Positions 37,218 to 51,317 of a stretch of 64,000 nucleotides of DNA are shown here, piece by piece. This DNA comes from Tuwongella immobilis (GTDB lineage: Bacteria > Planctomycetota > Planctomycetia > Gemmatales > Gemmataceae): contig NZ_LR593887.1 in NCBI RefSeq assembly GCF_901538355.1, positions 2,828,920-2,892,919 of the forward strand, given 5' to 3'. The notes under the pieces were generated by a model, which was given only the letters and a program-made list of their open reading frames with translations, ran no database searches and was not told the origin of the DNA. Position 1 is the stretch's first letter; the number at the start of each line of letters is the position of its first letter. The position numbers and the translations under genes were made by a program.

Positions 37218-37301
37218 CGGGGATTCCGTAGCTTGCGGCAGAAACCCGATCTACAATTCGGTATCTGCCGTTGCGATCCGAACCCCTAGCGGAAAGTGCC
37301 G

Positions 37302-40300
37302 ATGACCGATCCGCGCGCCGTCCCCCCGAATCCGCCGCCCTCGGGGGAGCAACCCACGATTCGCAATCTGTTTGCGGAGTCGCCCGCGAGCCGGAAACCG
37401 CCGCAAGTCGTTGGCAATTACCGACTCATGGAACGGATCGGCGAAGGGGGCATGGGCCAAGTCTTTCGCGGGGAGCATGTCAAACTCGGTCGCATCGTCG
37501 CCATCAAACTCATCCACCCCGAATTATTGCAAACGCCGCGATTGGTCAAACGCTTCGTGCGCGAGGTCCGCGCGGCGGCTCGTGTCGATCATCCGTTGAT
37601 TGTGCGGGCATACGATGCCGAATCGGATGGCAATATCCATTATCTGGTCATGGAATGGATCGATGGCCAGGATTTGAAGTCAATCGTTGCGCGTCGTGGG
37701 CCGCTGCCGGTGCCAGAAGTCCTTCGCATTGCGTTGGAAGTCGCGTTGGCGTTGGACCATCTGCATCAATTGGGCATGGTGCATCGGGATCTCAAGCCAT
37801 CGAATCTGATTCAGGTGCGAACGACGGGACAGGTGAAATTGCTCGATTTGGGCCTGGCGCGATTGACCGAACACGATGGTCCGGTGGATACTTCGCAGAC
37901 GCAAACCATGACCCGCCAAGGGGATATTCTCGGCACGCCGGATTTCATGGCCCCGGAACAGGCGATGAATGCCAAGGATGTCGATATTCGGGCCGATTTG
38001 TATAGCCTCGGGTGCACGCTGTACTATCTGCTGACGGCGTCGGTTCCGTTTCCGGGTGGCAACACCATCGAAAAGTTGCTGCGACAATGGCACGAGCCGC
38101 CCCCCGATTTGCGACGATTTCGGCCCGATGTCCCGGAGCCCGTTGCCGCGTTGGTGTCGCAATTGATGGCGAAATCGTTGGAGCATCGCTTTGCGACGCC
38201 GCGTGTGGTGGTGGATGCGTTGCGGTCGCTTGCGAGTCGTCCTGTGCCGCTGGCGATGCCGGTCGAGGATGCCACCATTCCGCAGGTAGAACCGGTGGAA
38301 GCCGTTTGGCAGCAACAGTTTAGCGACTGGGTCGAATCCGACTCCACCTTGGAGGAGGCGACCCGCGCCACGAAACAAGCCACCCGACCGAAACGCCGAT
38401 CCATCGCGTGGTTGGCGGCATCTGGAATGGCTGCCGCCGCGTTGGCGGTGCTGGTGATGCTGTTCCTGAATCCCGCGCCGACCCCGAATCCGACCGATGA
38501 ATCGGCGAACTCATCGGCGAACGCGAAGGAATCGGCGGATGCGTTGGAGCGCGATCGCTGGTATGCCGTCATCGATCGCCAACATGGGACGCCGGAGGCG
38601 ATTGCCGCAGCCGAAAATCTTCGCAAGCTCGTTTCGCCGTTGACGTTACTGCCGCGAAATGGGGCGAATGGCCCGCACATTCGCATCGGCGAAGCCAATC
38701 GCCGACATGGCGGCTGGATTCGGGGCATCGCGGCCAGCGCCGATGGCGAACGAATCGTCACCGGTGGATGGGATCGCATCGTCCGCATCTGGAATCGCCA
38801 GCCGTGGAAACTCCGCGAGACCCGCTCCGGCCACGATACCCCGATCTGGAACGTCGCGATTTCGCCGAACGGACGCTGGGTCGCTGGCATCTCCGGCTTT
38901 GACACCCTCTTTGATGGCGATGTCGGCATGGAGCGTAGCCTGCGATTATGGGATCTTGTCGAAGGCGGCGAGCGTGAAGTCTTCGACAACATGCGCTACG
39001 GGTGGAGTGTCTCCGCCGCGTTCACCCCCGATTCCAAGCGGCTATTGGTCGGTCAATACGATTCCGCGATGTTGTGGGATCTCGAGAAGTCCGAACCCGT
39101 TCGCCACTTCCGCACCGATGGCATGAATTGGTGCATGGCAACGGCTGTTTCGCCGGATGGAAAGTTTGCCTTCACCGGCGGCGGATTTCGGGATCACATT
39201 CGAGTCTGGGAGTTGGATACCGGGAAACTGGTGCGAGCATTCTCGAAATCCCACGGGCCGCCACGCTGTCTGGCGATTGCCGACGATGGCCGCAGATTGG
39301 CCGAATGCAGCGATGGCACGGTGCGAGTTTGGGATTGGACGACGGGGACCATGCTTCGAGAATTCCGCATTCCGAATCTCGAAATGAATGGGGTAACCTG
39401 GTGCGATGCCGGGCAATGCCTGGCGATCGTGCGTGCTGATGGGCGGGTCGTCTGGACCGCAGCGGATACCGGCGAAGTGCTGCGCGAAACACAGATCGAC
39501 GGCGTGGAACTCACCGGCGTCACGCGATTGGGGAATCACGGTCAGATTGCGGTGAGCGCCAGCGATGGCGGCGTGCGACGATTTCAATCCGAAACCGGAA
39601 CGGAACTGGAGCCACTCCCGGCACAATCGATCGCCCGTCAGTTGAATTGGCTTGATGGCGACAGGCAACTGCTGCTGATCCGCGAACTGGGCGTCACGGA
39701 GTTCCGGCCTCTGCTGCCGACGCGAGCAGTGCCTGCTGCGCTGCCAAGCGATTGGCGAACTGTCGCCGCGCTCGACGATGGCAGCGAATGGCTGGGGCGA
39801 ACCAACGCGACTTGGCAGCTTCGCAATCCGTTTACTGGAACGGTCCAAGCGACGGTCGAATGGCGCGAAGCAGGGCAGGCTCGCCTGGCGACGTTGGTCC
39901 CCAATCCCGCCAGTGCGAATCAACGCTCCAATGGTGTCGTGGCGTATTGGCCGAATCCGCGTGAGCTTCGCTATCAGCCATGGAAAGGGCCGATGCAGAT
40001 TTGGCCGATGCCGCAACAGGAGCACGCGCGAGCGTTGGCGGTGAGCGCAAATGGGCAGATGCTCGCCTACGGGACTGATCGTGGGCAGGTCGAGTTGATT
40101 GCACTCGCCGAGCCCAAGCCGCGATTTCGGGTGAAAATCGACCGCGAACCGATTCGCAAGCTGGCGTTCACGCCGGATGGGCAGACCGTGGTGGTCCTCA
40201 GCGGCAACTCGCAAGTTTACACGCTGTACGTCACCACCGAAGCGGTGAAGCCGATTCCGAATTTGGAGGGGAGCTTCGACGCGGTCGCGATTTCGGCAGA

Positions 40301-40481
40301 TGGAACGCGACTGGCGGTGGGTTCGCTCGTCGGCGAAGTGCGGATTCATGGGTTGCTGTCGCCGGGCCGATCGCGGCGCTGGAGTTTCCCATCCGCAGTG
40401 CGGAGTCTGAGATTCTCTCGCGATGGGGCGATGATTGCGGTGGGGCTGGCCAACGGCTGTGTCGAAATCGAACGCGATTAA
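37302..40481 (+). CDS. Ser/Thr protein kinase with transmembrane helix and WD40 repeats
   Basis: A 1059-residue receptor-like kinase. The catalytic domain has a Gly loop GEGGMG (from residue 47), the ATP Lys in AIK (Lys69), HRDLKPSN (161-168, Asp163), DLG in place of DFG (182-184) and APEQ. A single membrane helix lies at about 366-390. The rest is a beta-propeller region with WD40-like phrases such as IVTGGWDRIVRIWNR, LRLWDLVEGGE and VRVWDWTTGTM. This cytoplasmic kinase plus periplasmic or extracytoplasmic propeller is common in planctomycetes; the signal is unknown. The ATG at 37302 is chosen over a GTG 6 bases earlier because of GGAAAG. Confidence 0.92.
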   Translation: MTDPRAVPPNPPPSGEQPTIRNLFAESPASRKPPQVVGNYRLMERIGEGGMGQVFRGEHVKLGRIVAIKLIHPELLQTPRLVKRFVREVRAAARVDHPLIVRAYDAESDGNIHYLVMEWIDGQDLKSIVARRGPLPVPEVLRIALEVALALDHLHQLGMVHRDLKPSNLIQVRTTGQVKLLDLGLARLTEHDGPVDTSQTQTMTRQGDILGTPDFMAPEQAMNAKDVDIRADLYSLGCTLYYLLTASVPFPGGNTIEKLLRQWHEPPPDLRRFRPDVPEPVAALVSQLMAKSLEHRFATPRVVVDALRSLASRPVPLAMPVEDATIPQVEPVEAVWQQQFSDWVESDSTLEEATRATKQATRPKRRSIAWLAASGMAAAALAVLVMLFLNPAPTPNPTDESANSSANAKESADALERDRWYAVIDRQHGTPEAIAAAENLRKLVSPLTLLPRNGANGPHIRIGEANRRHGGWIRGIAASADGERIVTGGWDRIVRIWNRQPWKLRETRSGHDTPIWNVAISPNGRWVAGISGFDTLFDGDVGMERSLRLWDLVEGGEREVFDNMRYGWSVSAAFTPDSKRLLVGQYDSAMLWDLEKSEPVRHFRTDGMNWCMATAVSPDGKFAFTGGGFRDHIRVWELDTGKLVRAFSKSHGPPRCLAIADDGRRLAECSDGTVRVWDWTTGTMLREFRIPNLEMNGVTWCDAGQCLAIVRADGRVVWTAADTGEVLRETQIDGVELTGVTRLGNHGQIAVSASDGGVRRFQSETGTELEPLPAQSIARQLNWLDGDRQLLLIRELGVTEFRPLLPTRAVPAALPSDWRTVAALDDGSEWLGRTNATWQLRNPFTGTVQATVEWREAGQARLATLVPNPASANQRSNGVVAYWPNPRELRYQPWKGPMQIWPMPQQEHARALAVSANGQMLAYGTDRGQVELIALAEPKPRFRVKIDREPIRKLAFTPDGQTVVVLSGNSQVYTLYVTTEAVKPIPNLEGSFDAVAISADGTRLAVGSLVGEVRIHGLLSPGRSRRWSFPSAVRSLRFSRDGAMIAVGLANGCVEIERD

Positions 40482-42893: not shown

Positions 42894-45341
42894 TTACCGG
42901 GGAGGCGTCGTCTGCAAGCGCTGGGCGATTTCTCCCAAGGTACGCTCCAGCGAATCGATTACCACCAGCCACAGTTCGTCGGATTTTCGCAGGCGGTGCG
43001 CCAGATCAATCGCTTCCGCAAGGCTGGGCAGGGTATAGGTTTCGGTCAGGCGGCCCGGCTCGGGATTGGGCATCGTTCCACCTGCCAGAATCAGCCGATC
43101 GAACGCACCCGACACGCTGGCGGGGATTCCCGGTTTCCCGGTTGCATCGCGCCAATCGGCCAGCATTAGCAGCGAACGCGAATGGTGCGGCAGCGCCTCG
43201 ATGCCAGCGATCACCAGGGGCAACACGGCGCTTTCGCAGACGATTGTGGCAGTGCCAGCGGCGGAAAGCACCCGAATCGGCACATTCGGCGCATCCAAGT
43301 TGGGCAGCGTCGCCAGGAGGCTTTCGTGCGGAATTCGCAAGACATCCGCCGTCGCCATTGCCGCCAGTCGAGTGGTTCCCGGTCCGAAGGGATAGGCGCT
43401 TGCTTGAATGAATCGCGTTCGATTCTCGCCGGTGAAGCGTGCGACACTGCCATCTTGCACGCCGTAGCCGATTCCGCCAGTCGAAACGTGGCTGCGAAGC
43501 GGTGCGGAGAGCGGCTGATCGCTGACCAAGATTCGCTTGATGGTTGAGGTGGGGATCTGATCCAGCAGTTGCCGAAGGTGGTTATCTTCGGCAGGCAGAA
43601 TCACCGCACCGGTATCTTGAACCGCCCGCACCAGCACGGCACTGCACGCCAGGTCCGGTGGCGGAATTTCGGAATCGGCAAAGACAACGACATCGGCGGC
43701 ATCCAGCCCGAGTCCGTGTTCCTCGATTCGTGCGGGATCGACTTCGATGACCGCAGCGGTCACTGCGGGGTTGCCGAGAATCGCGCGGGTGGCGGCCAGC
43801 GACATTCCGGCCAAGTGGGGAATCGGTTCGCCGTCCACTTGCACGCCCTGCGATCCGGCGTGGCCGACTCGGTGCCCGGCCATCCGAAGCATTTCCCGAA
43901 TGGTGGCGGCTGTTCGTCCCCGCCCGGCACCGCCGCCAACCAGGACAATCGGCACCCGGCCATTCTCGCCCGGTCGATACAGCAGATCGACAATCGCCTC
44001 ACCCACCGGCTGTGGGGATCCACCCGACGGCTCCAGGTGCATCCGCAGTCCTGGCCCGGCATTCACTTCGACGATTCCGCCACGCTGACTTTCCAACGAT
44101 TGGGTAATGTCTCGACAGACGACATCGACGCCGGCGATATCCAACCCAACCGCCTGACTCGCTTCCACGGCGCGGCGGGCAGTCAGCGGATGCACCATTT
44201 CGGTGACATCTGTTGCGGTGCCGCCGGTGGAGAGATTGGCATTGCGGCGGATGAGGATGCGCTGCCCGGCTGCGGGGACACTTTCGGGGTTCATCCCCTG
44301 TTCGGCAAGCACTTGCAGCGCGATTCCATCCAGCTTGATGATGCTCAACACGGTGCCATGCCCATCGCTGCGGCGCGGGTCGCGGTTCACACGTTCGATC
44401 AGTTGCGTGATGGTCGATTGCCCATCACCGATGACGTGAGCCGGTTCGCGTCGGGCGGCGGCGACCAACTTGCCACCTACCACTAAGAGGCGGTAGTCGT
44501 CGCCTTCGAGATATTGTTCGACGAGAATCGAACTGCCTTCTTCGATCGCAAGGGCATAGGCCCGTTCCACTTGCGATTGGGTGTGGAGATTCGTCGCCAC
44601 GCCACGACCGTGATTGCCATACTGCGGTTTGACCACCACCGGCAGGCCGATTTCCTGCGCTGCGCGCCAGGCATCCGCAGCATCGCTAACAGGCCGACCC
44701 AAAGGAACCGGCACTCCCAACGCAATCAATAGTTCGCGGGTGAGTTCTTTATCTTGTGCGATGGTTTCGGCGATGGCGCTGGTGAATCCCGTTTCGGCGG
44801 TACAGACCCGGCGCTGATGCACCCCGTGGCCGAAAAAGACCAGACTGCCGGTGCCGATTCGACGGAACGGAATGCCACGTCGCGTGGCGGCCCGCACAAT
44901 CGCAGACGTGCTTGGCCCCAAGCGAATGTCGTAGGCCAAGGCTTTGAGTTCCGCGAGTCGTTCCTCGAACGGGAACAACCGACCTGCGCAGACGGCATCG
45001 AGCCAATCGCAGGCCATGGTTAGCGCTGCGCGGGCGATCCGTTCTTCTTCCAATGCGACGATGATGGGTGCGGAGTGCGAGGCGAAATCGGGCGGCGTTT
45101 CGCCAAACGACACGGGCGAGCCGCTGATGCGTTGCAATTCCAACGCCACATCGACGATCAAGCGGGGAAGTGTCTGCGGGGATGCTGGCAGCAGTTGGGG
45201 CAACGTCGGGGAGATGACCGTCTGCTCGATGGATGCAACTTGCGAGGCTTCCGAATCGGTCCAGTGGAGAGTCGCCACCAAGACCGGGCCGCGGCTCCAA
45301 CGGTTCACACCATGCAGCATCCGAATCTGCGAGCATTCCAT
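42894..45341 (-). CDS. CphA paralogue: intact ATP-grasp half, degenerate Mur-ligase half
   Basis: An 815-residue cyanophycin synthetase paralogue. The ATP-grasp (Asp-adding) half keeps Lys238, GNHGRG (242-247), AHVIGDG..STI, NANLSTGG and the metal/ATP motif VEVNAGPG (424-431). The Mur-ligase half, which adds Arg in CphA, has lost its P-loop: GTNGKTTT becomes GGGAGRGRTAA (469-479). The ETARGGILR motif is changed to EVDPARIEE, and no DHLG is found. The N-terminal domain is short but retains LHGVNRWS and VALELQRISGSPVSFG. ATG 45341 has AAGGAA upstream. Predicted to depend on the neighbouring paralogue for Arg addition; CphA2-type enzymes also have a dead Mur half and polymerise dipeptides, an alternative. 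Confidence 0.88.
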   Translation of the reverse strand: MECSQIRMLHGVNRWSRGPVLVATLHWTDSEASQVASIEQTVISPTLPQLLPASPQTLPRLIVDVALELQRISGSPVSFGETPPDFASHSAPIIVALEEERIARAALTMACDWLDAVCAGRLFPFEERLAELKALAYDIRLGPSTSAIVRAATRRGIPFRRIGTGSLVFFGHGVHQRRVCTAETGFTSAIAETIAQDKELTRELLIALGVPVPLGRPVSDAADAWRAAQEIGLPVVVKPQYGNHGRGVATNLHTQSQVERAYALAIEEGSSILVEQYLEGDDYRLLVVGGKLVAAARREPAHVIGDGQSTITQLIERVNRDPRRSDGHGTVLSIIKLDGIALQVLAEQGMNPESVPAAGQRILIRRNANLSTGGTATDVTEMVHPLTARRAVEASQAVGLDIAGVDVVCRDITQSLESQRGGIVEVNAGPGLRMHLEPSGGSPQPVGEAIVDLLYRPGENGRVPIVLVGGGAGRGRTAATIREMLRMAGHRVGHAGSQGVQVDGEPIPHLAGMSLAATRAILGNPAVTAAVIEVDPARIEEHGLGLDAADVVVFADSEIPPPDLACSAVLVRAVQDTGAVILPAEDNHLRQLLDQIPTSTIKRILVSDQPLSAPLRSHVSTGGIGYGVQDGSVARFTGENRTRFIQASAYPFGPGTTRLAAMATADVLRIPHESLLATLPNLDAPNVPIRVLSAAGTATIVCESAVLPLVIAGIEALPHHSRSLLMLADWRDATGKPGIPASVSGAFDRLILAGGTMPNPEPGRLTETYTLPSLAEAIDLAHRLRKSDELWLVVIDSLERTLGEIAQRLQTTPPR

Positions 45342-45431
45342 GCCGAGTTCCTTCCGAGACTTCCACCCAACGCAGTGATCCCTCGGATAAGATGCGAAAA
45401 GTGACCGCGATTGCCAGTGCAGTTCCAAAAA

Positions 45432-45486
45432 CTCACCACCCATTCCACCGGTGAATCGGAAGATTCCGTCCGGTGAAATGGGTGAG
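45432..45486 (-). terminator. Terminator/attenuator between the two cphA genes
   Basis: On the minus strand, CTCACCCATTTCACCGG pairs imperfectly with CCGGTGGAATGGGTGGTGAG and is followed at once by TTTTTGG. This is an intrinsic-terminator shape placed in the 165-base gap between the two cyanophycin genes. It would reduce read-through to the downstream paralogue. Confidence 0.7.
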
Positions 45487-45506
45487 TTCGGTTGACTGGG
45501 CTTCGG

Positions 45507-47987
45507 TCAGCTTGCCGAGGTGATTGCCGCCACCAATTCCACCATGCTAATGGTGGGCGAGGCGGCCAAACTCACGGACTTGCTCGACAGAAATTGCCGC
45601 ATGAACGCGACGGATTCGTCGATCACGTCGGCTTGCAGCAGCAGCACATCGCCCGGCTGCACATGTCGCAGGGCGTGCTGCATGGCGGCAACGCCTCCGG
45701 TGATGCCGTCGACGATCGGTTGCCGGTTCGATTGGGCAATCCCTTCGCGGAATCGCTCGATGATTTCACCGGGGCGACGGCCACGCAGGTAGTTGTCTTC
45801 GTACAGCACCACGCGATCGAAGTAATCGGCAATCATTCGACCTTGAATCCGCATATCCTCATCGCGACGGTCGCCGGCGGCGGAATAGACAATGTGCCGC
45901 TGACCGGAGCAGGGGAACTGCGATAAGGCATCGATCAATCGTTCCAATGCCGAAATGTTGTGGCCGTAATCGAGAATGACCGTTGCGCCATCGACATTCA
46001 GCACGTTGAACCGACCCGGCGATGCAAAGTCTTCGTTGCCAAAGGTTTCCAACCCGTGGCAGATCGCCTCCATCGGCAGATTCAGGCACCACGCTCCGGC
46101 AGCGGCGGCCAAGACATTCTCGACTTGGAAGCCAATCTTGCCAGCCAACGTCAGCGGGACGCGGGCGAGGTGAATCAGAGCGATTTCGTGGCTGCCTTCC
46201 GCCAGATGGATCATGCCATCGCGGACGAAGGCGGCCCGTCCCCCCTTGGCGCGATGCTCGACGATGACGGGATTCTCACCGTCGATTGCGAAGAACAGCA
46301 CCCGACCGGGGCACTTCTCGGCCATGGCGACGGTGAGCGGATCGACGGCATTCAGAATGCCAAATCCGGTCTCGCGGTGAACCACGTCGATGATGCAGCG
46401 TTTCACTTTGGCCAATTCTTCGACCGTGTGAATGTCGTTGATGCCCAAGTGGTCGCCGCTGCCGATGTTGGTGACAATCGCGACATCGCAGCGATCGAAG
46501 CCCAACCCCGCGCGAAGGATGCCTCCGCGAGCCGTCTCCAAGACCGCCGCCGTCATTTGCGGGTGGTGGAGAATCTTGCGTGCGCTGCTGGGCCCGGAGC
46601 AATCGCCGGATTCCAGCCGCTTTTGGTTGATGTATACGCCTTCGGTGTTGGTCATGCCGACCGTCGGGAATCTGGCTTGCGTGACCAGATGCGCGAGCAA
46701 TCGCGTGGTGGTCGTCTTGCCGTTGACACCCGTGACGGCGGCCAACGGAATGCGGCCTGTTTCGCCATTCGGAATGATTCGGTCGAGCACTGCTTCGACG
46801 ACTGGCTGAGCTGTGCCGTGTGTCGGTTGCAGGTGCTTCGCTAAGCCCGGCACCGGATGCACCCCAACGATCAAGCCGTGCTGACTGGTTAGCGACTGGC
46901 TGAGATCGGCGGCAACGACATCCACACCGGCAACGTCCAGCCCCAGCGTTTGAGCCGCGAGCACAATCCGGCTCGCAAATTCGGGCGAAAGTTGGTCAAT
47001 TGCTTCGGCATCGATCGGCAGTGGGCAGCTCGGGGACGGCGCGACCACGCGGACGCTCACCACCCGATCGCCAGCTACCAAACATCGCCACGTTGAGCCA
47101 ACTTGCTGATGCTCGACCAGCACTTCTCGACTGACGGCTTGGGCTTTTGCGAATGCATCGGCAACCTGTTGCGGTGTCGTGAGTTGCGCAAAGGTCGCTT
47201 GCCGGGAATAGCCGAATCGGGAGCGGACAACCACCGGGTATCCCGTGGCATCTGCCGCGCGAATGGCCGCTTCCGAGGTGGTGACCACTTCCGTGGCGGG
47301 GACCGGAATCCCCACGCCGGCCAACGCCAGCAGGCTGCTTTCGCGGTCGCGGGCGAGTTCGGCGGCGACAGTCGCCGTGCGTGACGACAGCGTGCGATAC
47401 ACCCGTTGCTGGTTGACGCCCCACCCGAAACGCATCAATCCGTCTTGATTCAGCAGTTCCACCGGAATCTGCCGTGCTTTGGCGGCTTTGAGCATCGCTC
47501 GCACGGTGGTGGTGGGCAACACGCGCTGGGCTAGTTCGGTCAGCGCATCGATTTCGTCTTGGATATTGAATGGCGTATTCCGCACCGCGGCATGGCAGAC
47601 GCGCAAGGCCGCATGCAGACTCGCTTTGCCGAGTTCTTCGTTCTCGAACGCGATGACAACTTTGTAGACACCTTCTTCGTAGGTCTCCCGAGTGCGGCCG
47701 AAGCCGACCGGGGAACCCGCCAGGGTCTGCAGTTCCAACGCGATATGTTCGAGAATGTGCCCTTGATACGTGCCACGACGGAGACGGACAAAGAATCCGC
47801 CGCGCTCGCCGACCGAGCAGCGATGCTCAATCATCGACGGCATCCACGCCATCAGGCGTTCGTTAAAACCGTCCAGGATGTCCGAAGGCGAATCCTTCAG
47901 ATCTTCCAGATCCAGCCATGCTTCGATGACCGGATAATTCGCCCAAATATTCGGTCCCCGCAAAGTCATCATCTTGCGAAAGTGCAT
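45507..47987 (-). CDS. CphA paralogue: intact Mur-ligase half, degenerate ATP-grasp half
   Basis: An 826-residue cyanophycin synthetase paralogue. The N-terminal domain is canonical (TLRGPNIWANY, LDLEDL, HIALELQTLAG, GFGRTRET). The ATP-grasp half is broken: the KPLDGNHGRG loop is RSRFGYSRQA (255-264). About 80 residues that normally carry AHVTGDG and NLSTGG are missing near 311-325, and VEVNAAPG reads VGVHPVPG (374-381). The Mur-ligase half is complete: TGVNGKTTTT (419-428), ETARGG (484-489), DHLG (512-515), a DYGHN motif and GDRRDED. It should add Arg but not Asp. It is the first gene of the pair and diverges from the ABC gene. Confidence 0.9.
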   Translation of the reverse strand: MHFRKMMTLRGPNIWANYPVIEAWLDLEDLKDSPSDILDGFNERLMAWMPSMIEHRCSVGERGGFFVRLRRGTYQGHILEHIALELQTLAGSPVGFGRTRETYEEGVYKVVIAFENEELGKASLHAALRVCHAAVRNTPFNIQDEIDALTELAQRVLPTTTVRAMLKAAKARQIPVELLNQDGLMRFGWGVNQQRVYRTLSSRTATVAAELARDRESSLLALAGVGIPVPATEVVTTSEAAIRAADATGYPVVVRSRFGYSRQATFAQLTTPQQVADAFAKAQAVSREVLVEHQQVGSTWRCLVAGDRVVSVRVVAPSPSCPLPIDAEAIDQLSPEFASRIVLAAQTLGLDVAGVDVVAADLSQSLTSQHGLIVGVHPVPGLAKHLQPTHGTAQPVVEAVLDRIIPNGETGRIPLAAVTGVNGKTTTTRLLAHLVTQARFPTVGMTNTEGVYINQKRLESGDCSGPSSARKILHHPQMTAAVLETARGGILRAGLGFDRCDVAIVTNIGSGDHLGINDIHTVEELAKVKRCIIDVVHRETGFGILNAVDPLTVAMAEKCPGRVLFFAIDGENPVIVEHRAKGGRAAFVRDGMIHLAEGSHEIALIHLARVPLTLAGKIGFQVENVLAAAAGAWCLNLPMEAICHGLETFGNEDFASPGRFNVLNVDGATVILDYGHNISALERLIDALSQFPCSGQRHIVYSAAGDRRDEDMRIQGRMIADYFDRVVLYEDNYLRGRRPGEIIERFREGIAQSNRQPIVDGITGGVAAMQHALRHVQPGDVLLLQADVIDESVAFMRQFLSSKSVSLAASPTISMVELVAAITSAS

Positions 47988-48556: not shown

Positions 48557-50860
48557 TTGAGCGTGTCAGCCAACCTTCCAATCGAGTCAATCCCAATTGC
48601 AAGCCGCGCGGCAGTCGAATCCCTGTTGATCGACGGTGAATCGATCCTCGGGGTCTTTCTGCCCGATCTCAATGCGGGGCTTCAGTTTGAAGCCAGCTTT
48701 GTGGTGCTCACCGATCGGCGTCTGCTCGCTCCGTTGGAGAACGGTGCGACCAACCCCGATTCCTCCGATTCCGATCTGCGAAACTGGAGGGTTTGGGATG
48801 TTCAGGAGGGTTATTCCTTAAAAGCCAGTGATTCCGGCGGGATCGGAATTCTCGAATTTTTTTCGCCTCAGCGCCGACTCGCCACTTGGCGATACACCGC
48901 CGCCAAGGCGATCGAAGCGCAACGATTCGCACAACGCTACGACGGAATTTTGAAGACTCGCCGCGGCGAACTAGTCCTGCAAGGAACGGTCTGCCCGTCG
49001 TGCGGCGCAGCGATCACCTCCGATGATGGCATCTGTCAGGCCTGCAAACCCAAAGACGATGCTCCGAAGTTTGGTGCCTTGTGGCGGCTGTCTCGATTCG
49101 CGCGAACCCGCAGCCGACAAATCCTGATCGGATTCGGACTCACGCTGGCATCCACCACCGCCGCCATGGTGCCGCCATATCTGACCATGCCATTGCTGGA
49201 TAACGTGTTGATCCCGCACCAAGCCGGGCAGCCCGCCGATTTCGGACTCGTGAAGTGGTACCTGGGCGGACTGGTGCTCGCGGCGATGGTGGCGTGGGTG
49301 TTGGATTGGGCGCGGGTCTATGTGCTGGCCAACACCAGCGAACTCATCGCGGCGGATGTCCGCAACGCCACGTATCGCCATTTGCAATCGCTGTCGTTGG
49401 AATTCTTTGGCGGCAAACGCACGGGCGATCTCATCTCCCGCGTATCGAGCGATTCGGATCGACTGTGCAATTTCTTGTCGATCAATGTGGTCGATTTTTG
49501 TGCCGATTGTTTGATGATTCTCTTGACCGCAACCATTCTGTTGCGAATCGATGCGGCGTTGGCGATGGCGACGCTGCTTCCGTTTCCGATCATTCTGTTG
49601 CTTGTGTATTGGATTCGCGGACGATTGTTGCGGAACTTCCGGCATGCCGGTGTGGCCTGGTCGGGGATGACCAGCATTCTTGCCGACACAATTCCCGGCA
49701 TTCGCGTCGTCAAAGCCTTCGCGCAAGAATCTCGCGAAGTCGAACGATTCGAAGAAGGCAACGAACGAGTGGTTCGTGCCAATGATCGTGTCAATATTCT
49801 CTGGTCGTTCTTCACGCCGACCGTTGCACTCATGACCACCCTGGGATTGGTAGTCGTTTGGGCCTCTGCTTCGTATCGCGTGTCGCAAAATCAGATCACC
49901 GTTGGAGTGCTGACGCTCTTTTTGGCGTACATCACTCGCTTCTACGGGCGGATCGAAGGGATGATTCGCATGGTCAATGCCTCGCAGCGAGCGGCGGCGA
50001 GTGCCCAGCGCATCTTCGAGATTCTCGATCGAATCCCCTCCGTTCCTGAGCCGACCAAGCCGATTGAGCCGGGGCGGCTCAACGGGGGCATCACGCTCGA
50101 CAATGTCCGATTCCAGTACGGCACCCGAGAAGTGATTCACGGTGTGTCGCTAGAGATTCAGCCTGGCGAAATGATTGGCCTGGTGGGACCGTCTGGCGCG
50201 GGCAAATCGACGCTCGTGAATCTGATTTGTCGCTTCTACGATGTCGCGGCGGGGGCGATCAAAGTCGATGGGGTGGATATCCGCTCGTTCTCGGTGCAGG
50301 CGTATCGGGCGAATATCGGCATTGTGCTGCAAGAGCCGTTTCTATTCTACGGAACGATCGCCGAAAATATCGCCTACGGGAAGCCCGATGCGACCCGCGA
50401 GCAAATCGTGGCGGCGGCCCGAGCTGCGCGGGCACACGACTTTATTCTGAAACTCAATGGCGGGTACGATTCCTTGGTCGGTGAGCGCGGGCAATCGCTT
50501 TCCGGTGGGGAACGGCAACGCATCTCCATTGCCCGAGCACTGCTGATGAACCCGGCGATTCTGATTCTCGATGAAGCGACTTCGTCGGTGGATAACGAAA
50601 CCGAACGGGAGATTCAGGCCGCGTTGGATAGTCTCATTCAAGGGCGAACGACCATTGCCATCGCGCATCGATTAACCACCTTGCGTCGTGCCAATCGGCT
50701 GATTGTCTTGGAGCGTGGGCGAATTGTCGAAATGGGGAATCACGAGCAGTTGATTGATCTTCCCAACGGGGTCTATGCCCGCTTGCATCAGACGCAAGAC
50801 GAAGCCGGTGCCAACGCGGAACCGAGCGCTGCCAAGGGGGGAGCGGACAGCCATGGCTGA
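48557..50860 (+). CDS. ABC transporter (permease-ATPase fusion) of the cyanophycin-associated type
   Basis: A 767-residue half-transporter with an unusual N-terminus: about 135 residues that look like a PH-like beta domain (SFVVLTDRRLLAPLENG), then a zinc ribbon Cys146/149...Cys160/163. Six membrane helices and an ATPase domain follow, with Walker A GPSGAGKST (544-552), QEPFLFYGTIAENIAYG, LSGGERQR and ILDEATSSVD. The start is TTG 48557 with GAGGA 7 bases before. It overlaps the DUF1854 gene by 8 bases. ABC genes of this type with a DUF1854 partner are known neighbours of cyanophycin synthetases; the cargo is unknown. Confidence 0.88.
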   Translation: MSVSANLPIESIPIASRAAVESLLIDGESILGVFLPDLNAGLQFEASFVVLTDRRLLAPLENGATNPDSSDSDLRNWRVWDVQEGYSLKASDSGGIGILEFFSPQRRLATWRYTAAKAIEAQRFAQRYDGILKTRRGELVLQGTVCPSCGAAITSDDGICQACKPKDDAPKFGALWRLSRFARTRSRQILIGFGLTLASTTAAMVPPYLTMPLLDNVLIPHQAGQPADFGLVKWYLGGLVLAAMVAWVLDWARVYVLANTSELIAADVRNATYRHLQSLSLEFFGGKRTGDLISRVSSDSDRLCNFLSINVVDFCADCLMILLTATILLRIDAALAMATLLPFPIILLLVYWIRGRLLRNFRHAGVAWSGMTSILADTIPGIRVVKAFAQESREVERFEEGNERVVRANDRVNILWSFFTPTVALMTTLGLVVVWASASYRVSQNQITVGVLTLFLAYITRFYGRIEGMIRMVNASQRAAASAQRIFEILDRIPSVPEPTKPIEPGRLNGGITLDNVRFQYGTREVIHGVSLEIQPGEMIGLVGPSGAGKSTLVNLICRFYDVAAGAIKVDGVDIRSFSVQAYRANIGIVLQEPFLFYGTIAENIAYGKPDATREQIVAAARAARAHDFILKLNGGYDSLVGERGQSLSGGERQRISIARALLMNPAILILDEATSSVDNETEREIQAALDSLIQGRTTIAIAHRLTTLRRANRLIVLERGRIVEMGNHEQLIDLPNGVYARLHQTQDEAGANAEPSAAKGGADSHG

Positions 50861-51317
50861 GATGCGAATGCTGACCGACGAGCGCGGGAAACTCATCCTC
50901 ATTCTGCCCGATGGAACCGAGCATCGCGGGGTTCATGTGATCCGGGCGTTCCCGATCACCGCTCCGCGCGAGGGAATCGCGATTGTCAGCAATGATGGCC
51001 GCGAAGTCGCATGGATTGCCAATCTCGATCAGGTCGATGCCGCGTTTCGAGAAAGCCTCGAAGCGGTTTTTCGTGGCCGTGAATTCATGCCGATCATTTC
51101 GAAGATCGAGCGAATCAACGGCACGACCGAGCCAACGACCTGGGAAGTGATCACCGATCGCGGCTGGACGAAATTTACACTCAACAATGAAGACGATGTG
51201 CATGCCTTCGATGGAAATGGGGCGATGATTTTGGATGCCCACGGGATTCGCTATCGGATTTTGGACATCCGGCAACTCGACGGGAAATCCCGTCGGTTGC
51301 TGGAACGCTATCTGTGA
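50853..51317 (+). CDS. DUF1854 protein, cyanophycin-associated
   Basis: A 154-residue DUF1854 protein. Family features are the beta-rich start (LILPDGTEHRGVHVIRAFPIT), VSNDGREVAWI, ISKIERINGTTEPTTWEV and the end RYRILDIRQLDGKSRRLLERYL. DUF1854 genes recur beside an ABC transporter and cyanophycin synthetases, although their action is unknown. The ATG lies within the last codons of the ABC gene, so translation is coupled. It converges with the outer-membrane protein gene, with 3 bases between stops. Confidence 0.88.
   Translation: MAEMRMLTDERGKLILILPDGTEHRGVHVIRAFPITAPREGIAIVSNDGREVAWIANLDQVDAAFRESLEAVFRGREFMPIISKIERINGTTEPTTWEVITDRGWTKFTLNNEDDVHAFDGNGAMILDAHGIRYRILDIRQLDGKSRRLLERYL

Follow-up and report, generated by a model that had tools for sequence, protein, structure and literature searches.

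Two adjacent cyanophycin synthetase paralogues of Tuwongella immobilis with complementary site losses: a probable two-component enzyme

Why does Tuwongella immobilis carry two neighbouring genes for cyanophycin synthetase (CphA), neither of which is complete? The window analysed here is a stretch of 64,000 nucleotides of contig NZ_LR593887.1 (positions 2,828,920 to 2,892,919), in which the two genes follow one another on the minus strand in the same orientation, separated by a gap of 165 bases. Component A (P0002, 826 aa) lies at 45507..47987 and component B (P0001, 815 aa) at 42894..45341; both are CphA1-like. The start of B at 45341 was favoured over a longer open reading frame because of homology and an AAGGAA sequence upstream. 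An earlier sequence-only reading had recognized the two as adjacent CphA paralogues, and this is confirmed by the open reading frames and by matches of both proteins to solved CphA1 structures. That reading counted two sites in CphA and missed a third. CphA1 has three: N, a primer-making protease; G, an ATP-grasp site that adds aspartate; and M, a Mur ligase site that adds arginine. In 2022 the N domain was described as a zinc protease (motif Cx19HxxEH) that produces primers by cutting cyanophycin (PMC9262961, in the sections cited here). With this third site counted, the split is N and M on one protein and G on the other.

We scored each site using residues with published roles or conserved motifs, in SuCphA1 numbering (PMC9262961 and PMC9427784, in part): C59, H79, E82 and H83 for N; K261, H/Q267, R309, R323, N394, S396, E450, N452 and R458 for G; and K499, T500, E558, D585, H586, R731 and H748 for M. 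A lid motif (E800, D801, R805 and R807) was scored as well, chosen because its two arginines are kept in complete planctomycete genes. By analogy with MurE, this motif may have a role in holding arginine. A scores N 4/4, G 1/9, M 7/7 and lid 4/4, and B scores N 0/4, G 9/9, M 2/7 and lid 0/4. The scores of dead sites vary by one between alignments (G 2/9 for A and M 3/7 for B in other alignments). Each site is intact in at least one of the two genes, neither gene is complete and neither A (G 1-2/9) nor B (M 2-3/7) is a single chain with both G and M intact.

The motifs agree with these scores, and all of those given here are on the minus strand. In A the Cx19HxxEH metalloprotease motif (as given in PMC9262961) is intact at 47745..47825, with HRCS at residues 55-58 and HILEH at 77-81. 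The Mur P-loop GVNGKTTTT (46704..46730), the stretch from ETARGG to GDHLG (46443..46538) and the C-terminal motifs DYGHN, GDRRD and EDNYLRGR (45777..45971) are also intact, so the sequence-only reading was correct in assigning Mur motifs to this gene. It was correct too in describing the ATP-grasp glycine loop and metal site as destroyed. The lysine and glycine loop have degenerated to VVVRS..GYSRQA (canonical VVIKP..GNHGRG; 47196..47234), the metal site reads VGVHPVPG (canonical VEVNAAPG, EVNA having become GVHP; 46845..46868) and the LSTGG segment is absent. The G domain is shortened, as had been noticed, but by about 67-70 positions (256 aligned of 323-326) and not by about 80 residues.

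In B the reverse is seen. The ATP-grasp motifs had been read as kept, and VVVKP..GNHGRG (44601..44639), the aspartate-binding loop ANLSTGG (44220..44240; role from PMC9427784) and VEVNAGPG with RMHLEPS (44025..44072) are all intact. The aspartate-binding residues R323, N394, S396 and R458 are retained, together with the essential R309 (roles from PMC9427784). The Mur P-loop is dead, as first read, with GGAGRGRT within the sequence VGGGAGRGRT (43911..43940), but the loss is larger than that: the entire Mur site is gone, and so is the Cx19HxxEH motif, with RLIVD at 45150..45164 in the N-site helix where HILEH is expected.

The best matches of both proteins in the PDB are CphA1 chains (E 7.6e-165 for A and 2.3e-113 for B). 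In Pfam, A matches the CphA N-terminal domain, Mur_ligase_M and Mur_ligase_C, with a marginal RimK/ATP-grasp match (22.4 bits, cut-off 21), and B has a clear RimK/ATP-grasp match (44.3 bits) and no Mur domain. Median identities over N, G and M to 55 canonical planctomycete CphAs are 59/36/55% for A and 25/64/27% for B, in comparison with 63/65/57% for the canonical proteins among themselves. The retained domains of both proteins are near the normal level of identity and the other domains have been let go. The AlphaFold2 model of A (mean pLDDT 79.9) aligns with TeCphA1 (7wae) over 783 residues (Z 41.9, rmsd 5.5), with the N, G and M folds in CphA1 order. The model of B (mean pLDDT 72.4) aligns over 750 residues (Z 23.9, rmsd 15.0), and its former Mur part is of low confidence. 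Together A and B match the domain order, the fold and all three sites of CphA1 (SuCphA1, TeCphA1, AbCphA1 and TmCphA1). In CphA1, however, G and M are on one chain, usually with N too, whereas here no chain has both G and M.

We searched 102 genomes of the order at E 1e-40, a search in which the A and B queries also retrieve each other's component. The A query matched in 17/102 genomes and the B query in 16/102. After gene extraction and site scoring, A was present in 16 and B in 16, and both were present in 15 of the 17 genomes with either. The sequence-only reading had raised the case of one gene without the other in related genomes; most keep both, and the two that do not are G038, with A only, and G035, with B only, its frame starting 232 bases from a contig end.

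The reciprocal loss, which had been proposed as something to look for in related planctomycetes, recurs across the family. In A the N motif is intact in 16/16 family genomes and the G site is dead in 16/16 (partly masked in G094); in four of them (G037-G040) the G domain is deleted entirely, and the N-M protein that remains has about 640-660 aa. In B the N motif is absent in 15/15 scorable genomes, the gene of G080 having no readable start. The Mur P-loop of B is lost in eight genomes (G000, G080, G082-G086 and G094, with a masked run in G094 and the gene of G080 cut by a contig end), and the other eight family B genes have an intact Mur core and a lid motif decayed to 0-2/4. Every family A gene that reaches the lid motif keeps 3-4/4. 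A and B are thus divided throughout the family, and the split has gone furthest in the window, in g36 and in G094. As the same split recurs in relatives, it is not due to chance.

Other variants of these genes were also seen. Component A of G030, G034, G085 and G094 (L079, L080, L096 and L072) carries a SET domain (PF00856) fused at its C-terminal end, and so does the CphA of G282 and G159 (L166 and L209). There are extra CphA copies of about 575-835 aa at L074, L075, L088 and L091 and at L254-L260 (G289, G239, G388, G370, G364, G277 and G350), in which N and M are dead and the aspartate-binding residues changed; their layout is CphA2-like.

Selection was measured in relatives because one genome of the window's genus was available. 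We used pairwise Nei-Gojobori dN/dS by domain; some pairs have dS >1, which makes the ratio rough, and pairs without finite dS were dropped. For B the values were G 0.046-0.077, N 0.137-0.175 and M 0.139-0.197 in g16, and G 0.032-0.100, N 0.121-0.247 and M 0.133-0.359 in g36. The gene with a lost N in family f4 (a differently divided pair, described below) gave N 0.148-0.180, G 0.008-0.017 and M 0.011-0.031. The lost domains of B and of this f4 gene evolve faster than the kept ones. In A of g16 the two kept domains gave N 0.016-0.071 and M 0.024-0.086. Relaxed selection is seen on most, not all, of the lost domains, and no analysed gene looks like a pseudogene, since all ratios are well under 1.

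Trees were built by a quick method, with SH-aLRT as the only support and many weak forks. The G-domain tree places B in a set of 17 rows (SH-aLRT 87) that also includes the other B genes of the family, the N+G gene of G131 and two complete genes of family f6, which are the nearest sisters of B (SH-aLRT 91). In the Mur tree those B genes that have a Mur core group together (85), and the A genes are spread over three groups among the canonical genes. With this spread and the modest support, a single origin of A is neither shown nor excluded.

Is the split confined to this family? An alignment search with A found a match in 118/397 genomes of the class, 101 of them outside the family, and 91/101 were fetched and scored (left out were G209, G246, G254, G258, G301, G330, G347, G363, G377 and G390). 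Where one gene was scored, it had all three sites (41/41 genomes); a whole-genome check for second copies at E 1e-30 found none in 39/41 and one weak unscored copy each in G123 and G262. Fifty genomes had at least two scored genes, and may contain more copies than were scored. Fourteen of them have a complete gene plus extra copies (two complete genes in G260), 31 lack any complete gene yet have every site when their genes are taken together, and five have an incomplete set that in each case includes a contig-edge gene. In the class set a genome misses a site only where some gene runs off a contig.

The sites are divided in several ways. Tandem pairs in family f4 have N on one gene and G and M on the other (N/G+M). 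G144 and G156 show the same partition with the genes at separate loci, and in the partner there little beyond N is left. These pairs have complementary loss in the same class and differ from the window's pair in the partition. In the adjacent pair of G131 (family f6, L163) G and M are obligately split over two genes, as they are here, but N stays with G and M is alone (N+G/M). By the strict rule G221 has the N+M/G partition. G294, from another family, has N+M/G+M, which looks like an early step of the split, and G191 and G233 keep N twice.

We compared the observed pairs with random re-pairing after setting aside contig-edge genes, genes in which no site is intact and genomes that have an intact copy. 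Among the 37 usable pairs, 36 have a complete set, in comparison with a mean of 14.1 and a maximum of 24/37 in 20,000 draws. The single incomplete pair is G086, whose A genes are contig-edge pieces.

At many loci from other classes of the phylum (L134-L150) and at L282, L309, L324, L334, L336 and L338, a frame of about 440-860 aa, sometimes cut by the locus end, adjoins a complete CphA. These frames have Mur motifs and neither an N nor a G site.

Neighbouring cphA pairs in other bacteria, mentioned in the sequence-only reading, were also found. The scan of named genomes covered 80 loci among the matches listed, and 27/80 of these have an adjacent N/G+M pair (a count that is not a frequency), mostly in Betaproteobacteria by record titles. 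Examples are Nitrosomonas europaea (L295), Delftia acidovorans (L303), Massilia (L280) and Duganella, and one is the planctomycete Schlesneria. In the first gene the N motif is kept, R323 and R458 of the G site are replaced in 27/27 among these matches and the Mur part is dead except at the Schlesneria locus; the second gene keeps G and M. The altered G site of the first gene may be dead or may take another substrate. Like A and B, the betaproteobacterial tandem pairs are adjacent genes with complementary loss. They differ in that only N has been split off and the second gene has both ligase sites. In activated-sludge taxa 'two copies of cphA' beside an ABC transporter have been noted, in a section of PMC10687191 that proposes no split function.

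A rule that site loss always goes with a partner was rejected for bacteria as a whole. Outside the class, 7/43 named loci with a single CphA are without N and have no partner in the flanks covered (L266, L279, L286, which begins at a contig end, L321, L330, L333 and L340). In the same 43 loci the rule for M fails at L293 and L323 (one lid arginine) and at L328 (a shortened frame). At L310, on a short contig, N alone is kept. TmCphA1 is primer-dependent and without N (PMC9262961, in part).

Taken together, the data make it probable that A and B are two components of one cyanophycin synthetase, with the three active sites shared between the paralogues. Divided labour, which the sequence-only reading had already proposed, is strongly supported by the residue complementarity, the conserved locus, the co-occurrence in 15/17 genomes, the recurrent complementary splits with other partitions and the relaxed selection on lost domains, with purifying selection on the kept domains of relatives. 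The intact ATP-grasp site of B would activate the C-terminal carboxylate of the chain and add aspartate, and the intact Mur site of A would attach arginine to the aspartate added by B. The N-domain protease of A would clip chains into primers that seed new chains. On this reading the growing end has to alternate between A and B, so neither protein alone should make cyanophycin. The catalysis, the specificity for aspartate and arginine and the manner in which A and B meet, as a stable complex or transiently, are what we infer.

The split may have arisen in three steps. From the class comparison the likely beginning is the state of G294, in which one gene has lost N and the other G while both retain M. 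The C-terminal part of the Mur domain would then have decayed in B (eight family genomes), and finally the Mur site of B would have been lost fully (the window genome, the six g36 genomes and G094).

There is a precedent of sorts in engineered SuCphA1 heterodimers, which have their sites on different protomers but are laboratory point mutants of one chain (PMC9262961, in part). According to the legend of Fig. 4c in that paper, the combination G-M+N+/G+M-N-, which is the partition seen here, was, with primer, about as active as the form in which one protomer carries every site. Should the legend be correct, the sites of A and B are divided just as in an engineered enzyme that works. A naturally split CphA was not found in open-access titles and the starts of abstracts, among the matches listed, in a search outside which most subscription journals and preprints fall.

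Several observations weigh against the two-component reading. G038, a 93% complete draft, has A without a detected B, and the two genes sit on different contigs in five draft genomes (G036, G037, G039, G040 and G080); many of the relatives are draft assemblies. The dead G domain of A in g36 has a dN/dS of 0.038-0.102, with no clear excess over N and M. As it is as constrained as those domains, it is not simply decaying; it may keep a structural role. The same may hold for the G and Mur domains that are altered in the f4 partner gene (dN/dS 0.012-0.051). Because the re-pairing statistic (36/37 against 14.1) takes no account of shared ancestry, more weight rests on the finding that splits recur in several families and with different partitions. 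The lid motif is an unsure marker of an impaired Mur domain in the eight B genes that keep the Mur core, because single CphA genes from other phyla (L293, L321 and L323) differ at one lid arginine. The section text of PMC9262961 names another combination, N-G+M+/N+G-M-, than the figure legend does, which makes the engineered precedent ambiguous. No biochemistry on this pair was found in the literature searched. Finally, overexpression of the cphA homologues of R. eutropha H16, whose sequences fall outside this analysis, reportedly yielded no cyanophycin either in that bacterium itself or in E. coli (PMC8560796, in the part that cites Adames 2013).

Some of these observations fit an arrangement of two separate enzymes that act in turn with no stable complex, B adding aspartate and diffusing off before A adds arginine. 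Labour would be divided in the same way, but the assembly would differ from the hetero-oligomer that the sequence-only reading had proposed. We regard this as possible, with odds somewhat short of even. The G domain, which makes a known Gcore-Gcore dimer contact (PMC9427784, in part), is missing from A in G037-G040, B of g36 is without most of the Mur domain, and A and B are on different contigs in the five drafts named above. The making of primers by the N domain is also reported to work in trans (PMC9262961, in part). On the other side, G000, G028, G030, G034 and G094 have A and B side by side and equally oriented, and the proximity of sites helps in reactions without primer (PMC9262961, in part). 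The canonical interface is not universal, because A has no G domain in four relatives, B has no Mur P-loop in eight and the genes are on different contigs in five. Adjacency argues for a stable complex of A and B, whereas the loss of G from A in g16, the loss of Mur from B in g36 and the separate contigs argue against the contacts of the known homotetramer in all relatives.

It is unlikely that B is a CphA2-like enzyme that rejoins beta-Asp-Arg dipeptides, with A an unrelated arginine ligase or a relic and no pathway shared between them. The G domain of B does look active while its Mur domain is dead, and B matches CphA2 structures. It scores 383.5 bits to CphA1 (7lgm), however, far above the 224 bits to 8fxh, which with 8fxi we take to be CphA2, and the 211.8 bits to 7ta5, which is titled as a CphA2 structure. 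B also keeps the CphA1 aspartate-binding residues, groups in the G-domain tree with the other B genes of the family (a Mur core persists in half of these genomes) and is accompanied by A in 15/16 genomes. Identification of B as CphA2 was not adopted, given the nearer sequence and these residues. CphA2 resembles B in having one ligase site, of G type, and in lacking the N-site motif (PMC10206079 and PMC9262961, in part); it is described as a repolymerase with a single active site (PMC10206079, in part).

A product other than cyanophycin, with another side-chain amino acid or a modified chain, is doubtful. The side-chain amino acid of CphA products is variable (PMC8560796, in part) and some relatives of A have the C-terminal SET domain, but the window's A is without it and has a lid sequence (EDNYLRGR) of the type found in canonical planctomycete CphAs. 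Least probable, and very unlikely, is that the pair is a decaying duplicate and cyanophycin is no longer made. It is true that both proteins are under the NCBIfam cut-offs (790.1 bits for A and 558.2 for B against 850 in TIGR02068, and matches under the curated cut-off of NF010623) and that at E 1e-40 A is unmatched in 85/102 genomes of the order. However, the frames are open, the retained sites are unbroken, the losses are complementary rather than scattered, and cyanophycin-associated neighbours are retained. The kept domains are under purifying selection in relatives, and pseudogene decay of one copy was set aside for this reason and for the complementarity.

These neighbours lie divergently from A on the plus strand. 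A gene for a cyanophycin metabolism-associated ABC transporter (NF052233; 1092.5 bits, cut-off 880) is at 48557..50860, and one for a cyanophycin metabolism-associated DUF1854 protein (NF052234; 175.1 bits, cut-off 150) is at 50754..51317. As both adjoin the pair and pass the NCBIfam cut-offs, more than the synthetases marks this as a cyanophycin locus. Genes like the transporter gene occur in 89/220 CphA loci (E<1e-60) and genes like that for DUF1854 in 68/220, many loci having short flanks; both are nearby in most of the betaproteobacterial tandem pairs.

The genome of the window, which is one contig, has no further match to the CphA profile above 46 bits. It has a single gene of the cyanophycinase family elsewhere (a 578-aa frame that scores exactly at the family cut-off), and since cyanophycinase matches occur in 80/102 genomes, with or without CphA, this is uninformative for specificity. 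In G028 a cyanophycinase-family match (L078, 16776-17339) lies a few kb from the A/B pair on the same contig. Promoter and terminator scans gave no signal exceeding shuffled sequences. Directly downstream of B, and convergent with it, is a gene for a PLD-like domain protein (PF13091; 42167-42874, plus strand), and at 37296-40481 on the plus strand the window encodes WD40-type repeats fused to a protein kinase.

Beyond this locus, we think it rather likely that CphA has been broken repeatedly into obligate two-protein enzymes, with at least three partitions (N+M/G, N/G+M and N+G/M). In the two-component enzyme proposed here the ligases would be on different proteins, so that the polymer end is passed back and forth for each residue, and the second cphA of Betaproteobacteria, known for a long time, would be the primer-making half of a split enzyme. 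An enzyme taken apart by evolution in several ways is a natural test of which sites need to be on one chain, and the engineered complementation experiment becomes a prediction about wild enzymes. Primer making also offers a testable reason for the second cphA genes of many bacteria. Production of cyanophycin from one gene of a pair that splits G from M is suggested to fail. In a single-chain enzyme primer cutting and polymerization are not separately settable through the level of expression (PMC9262961, in part), whereas separate genes would let the cell set the two independently.

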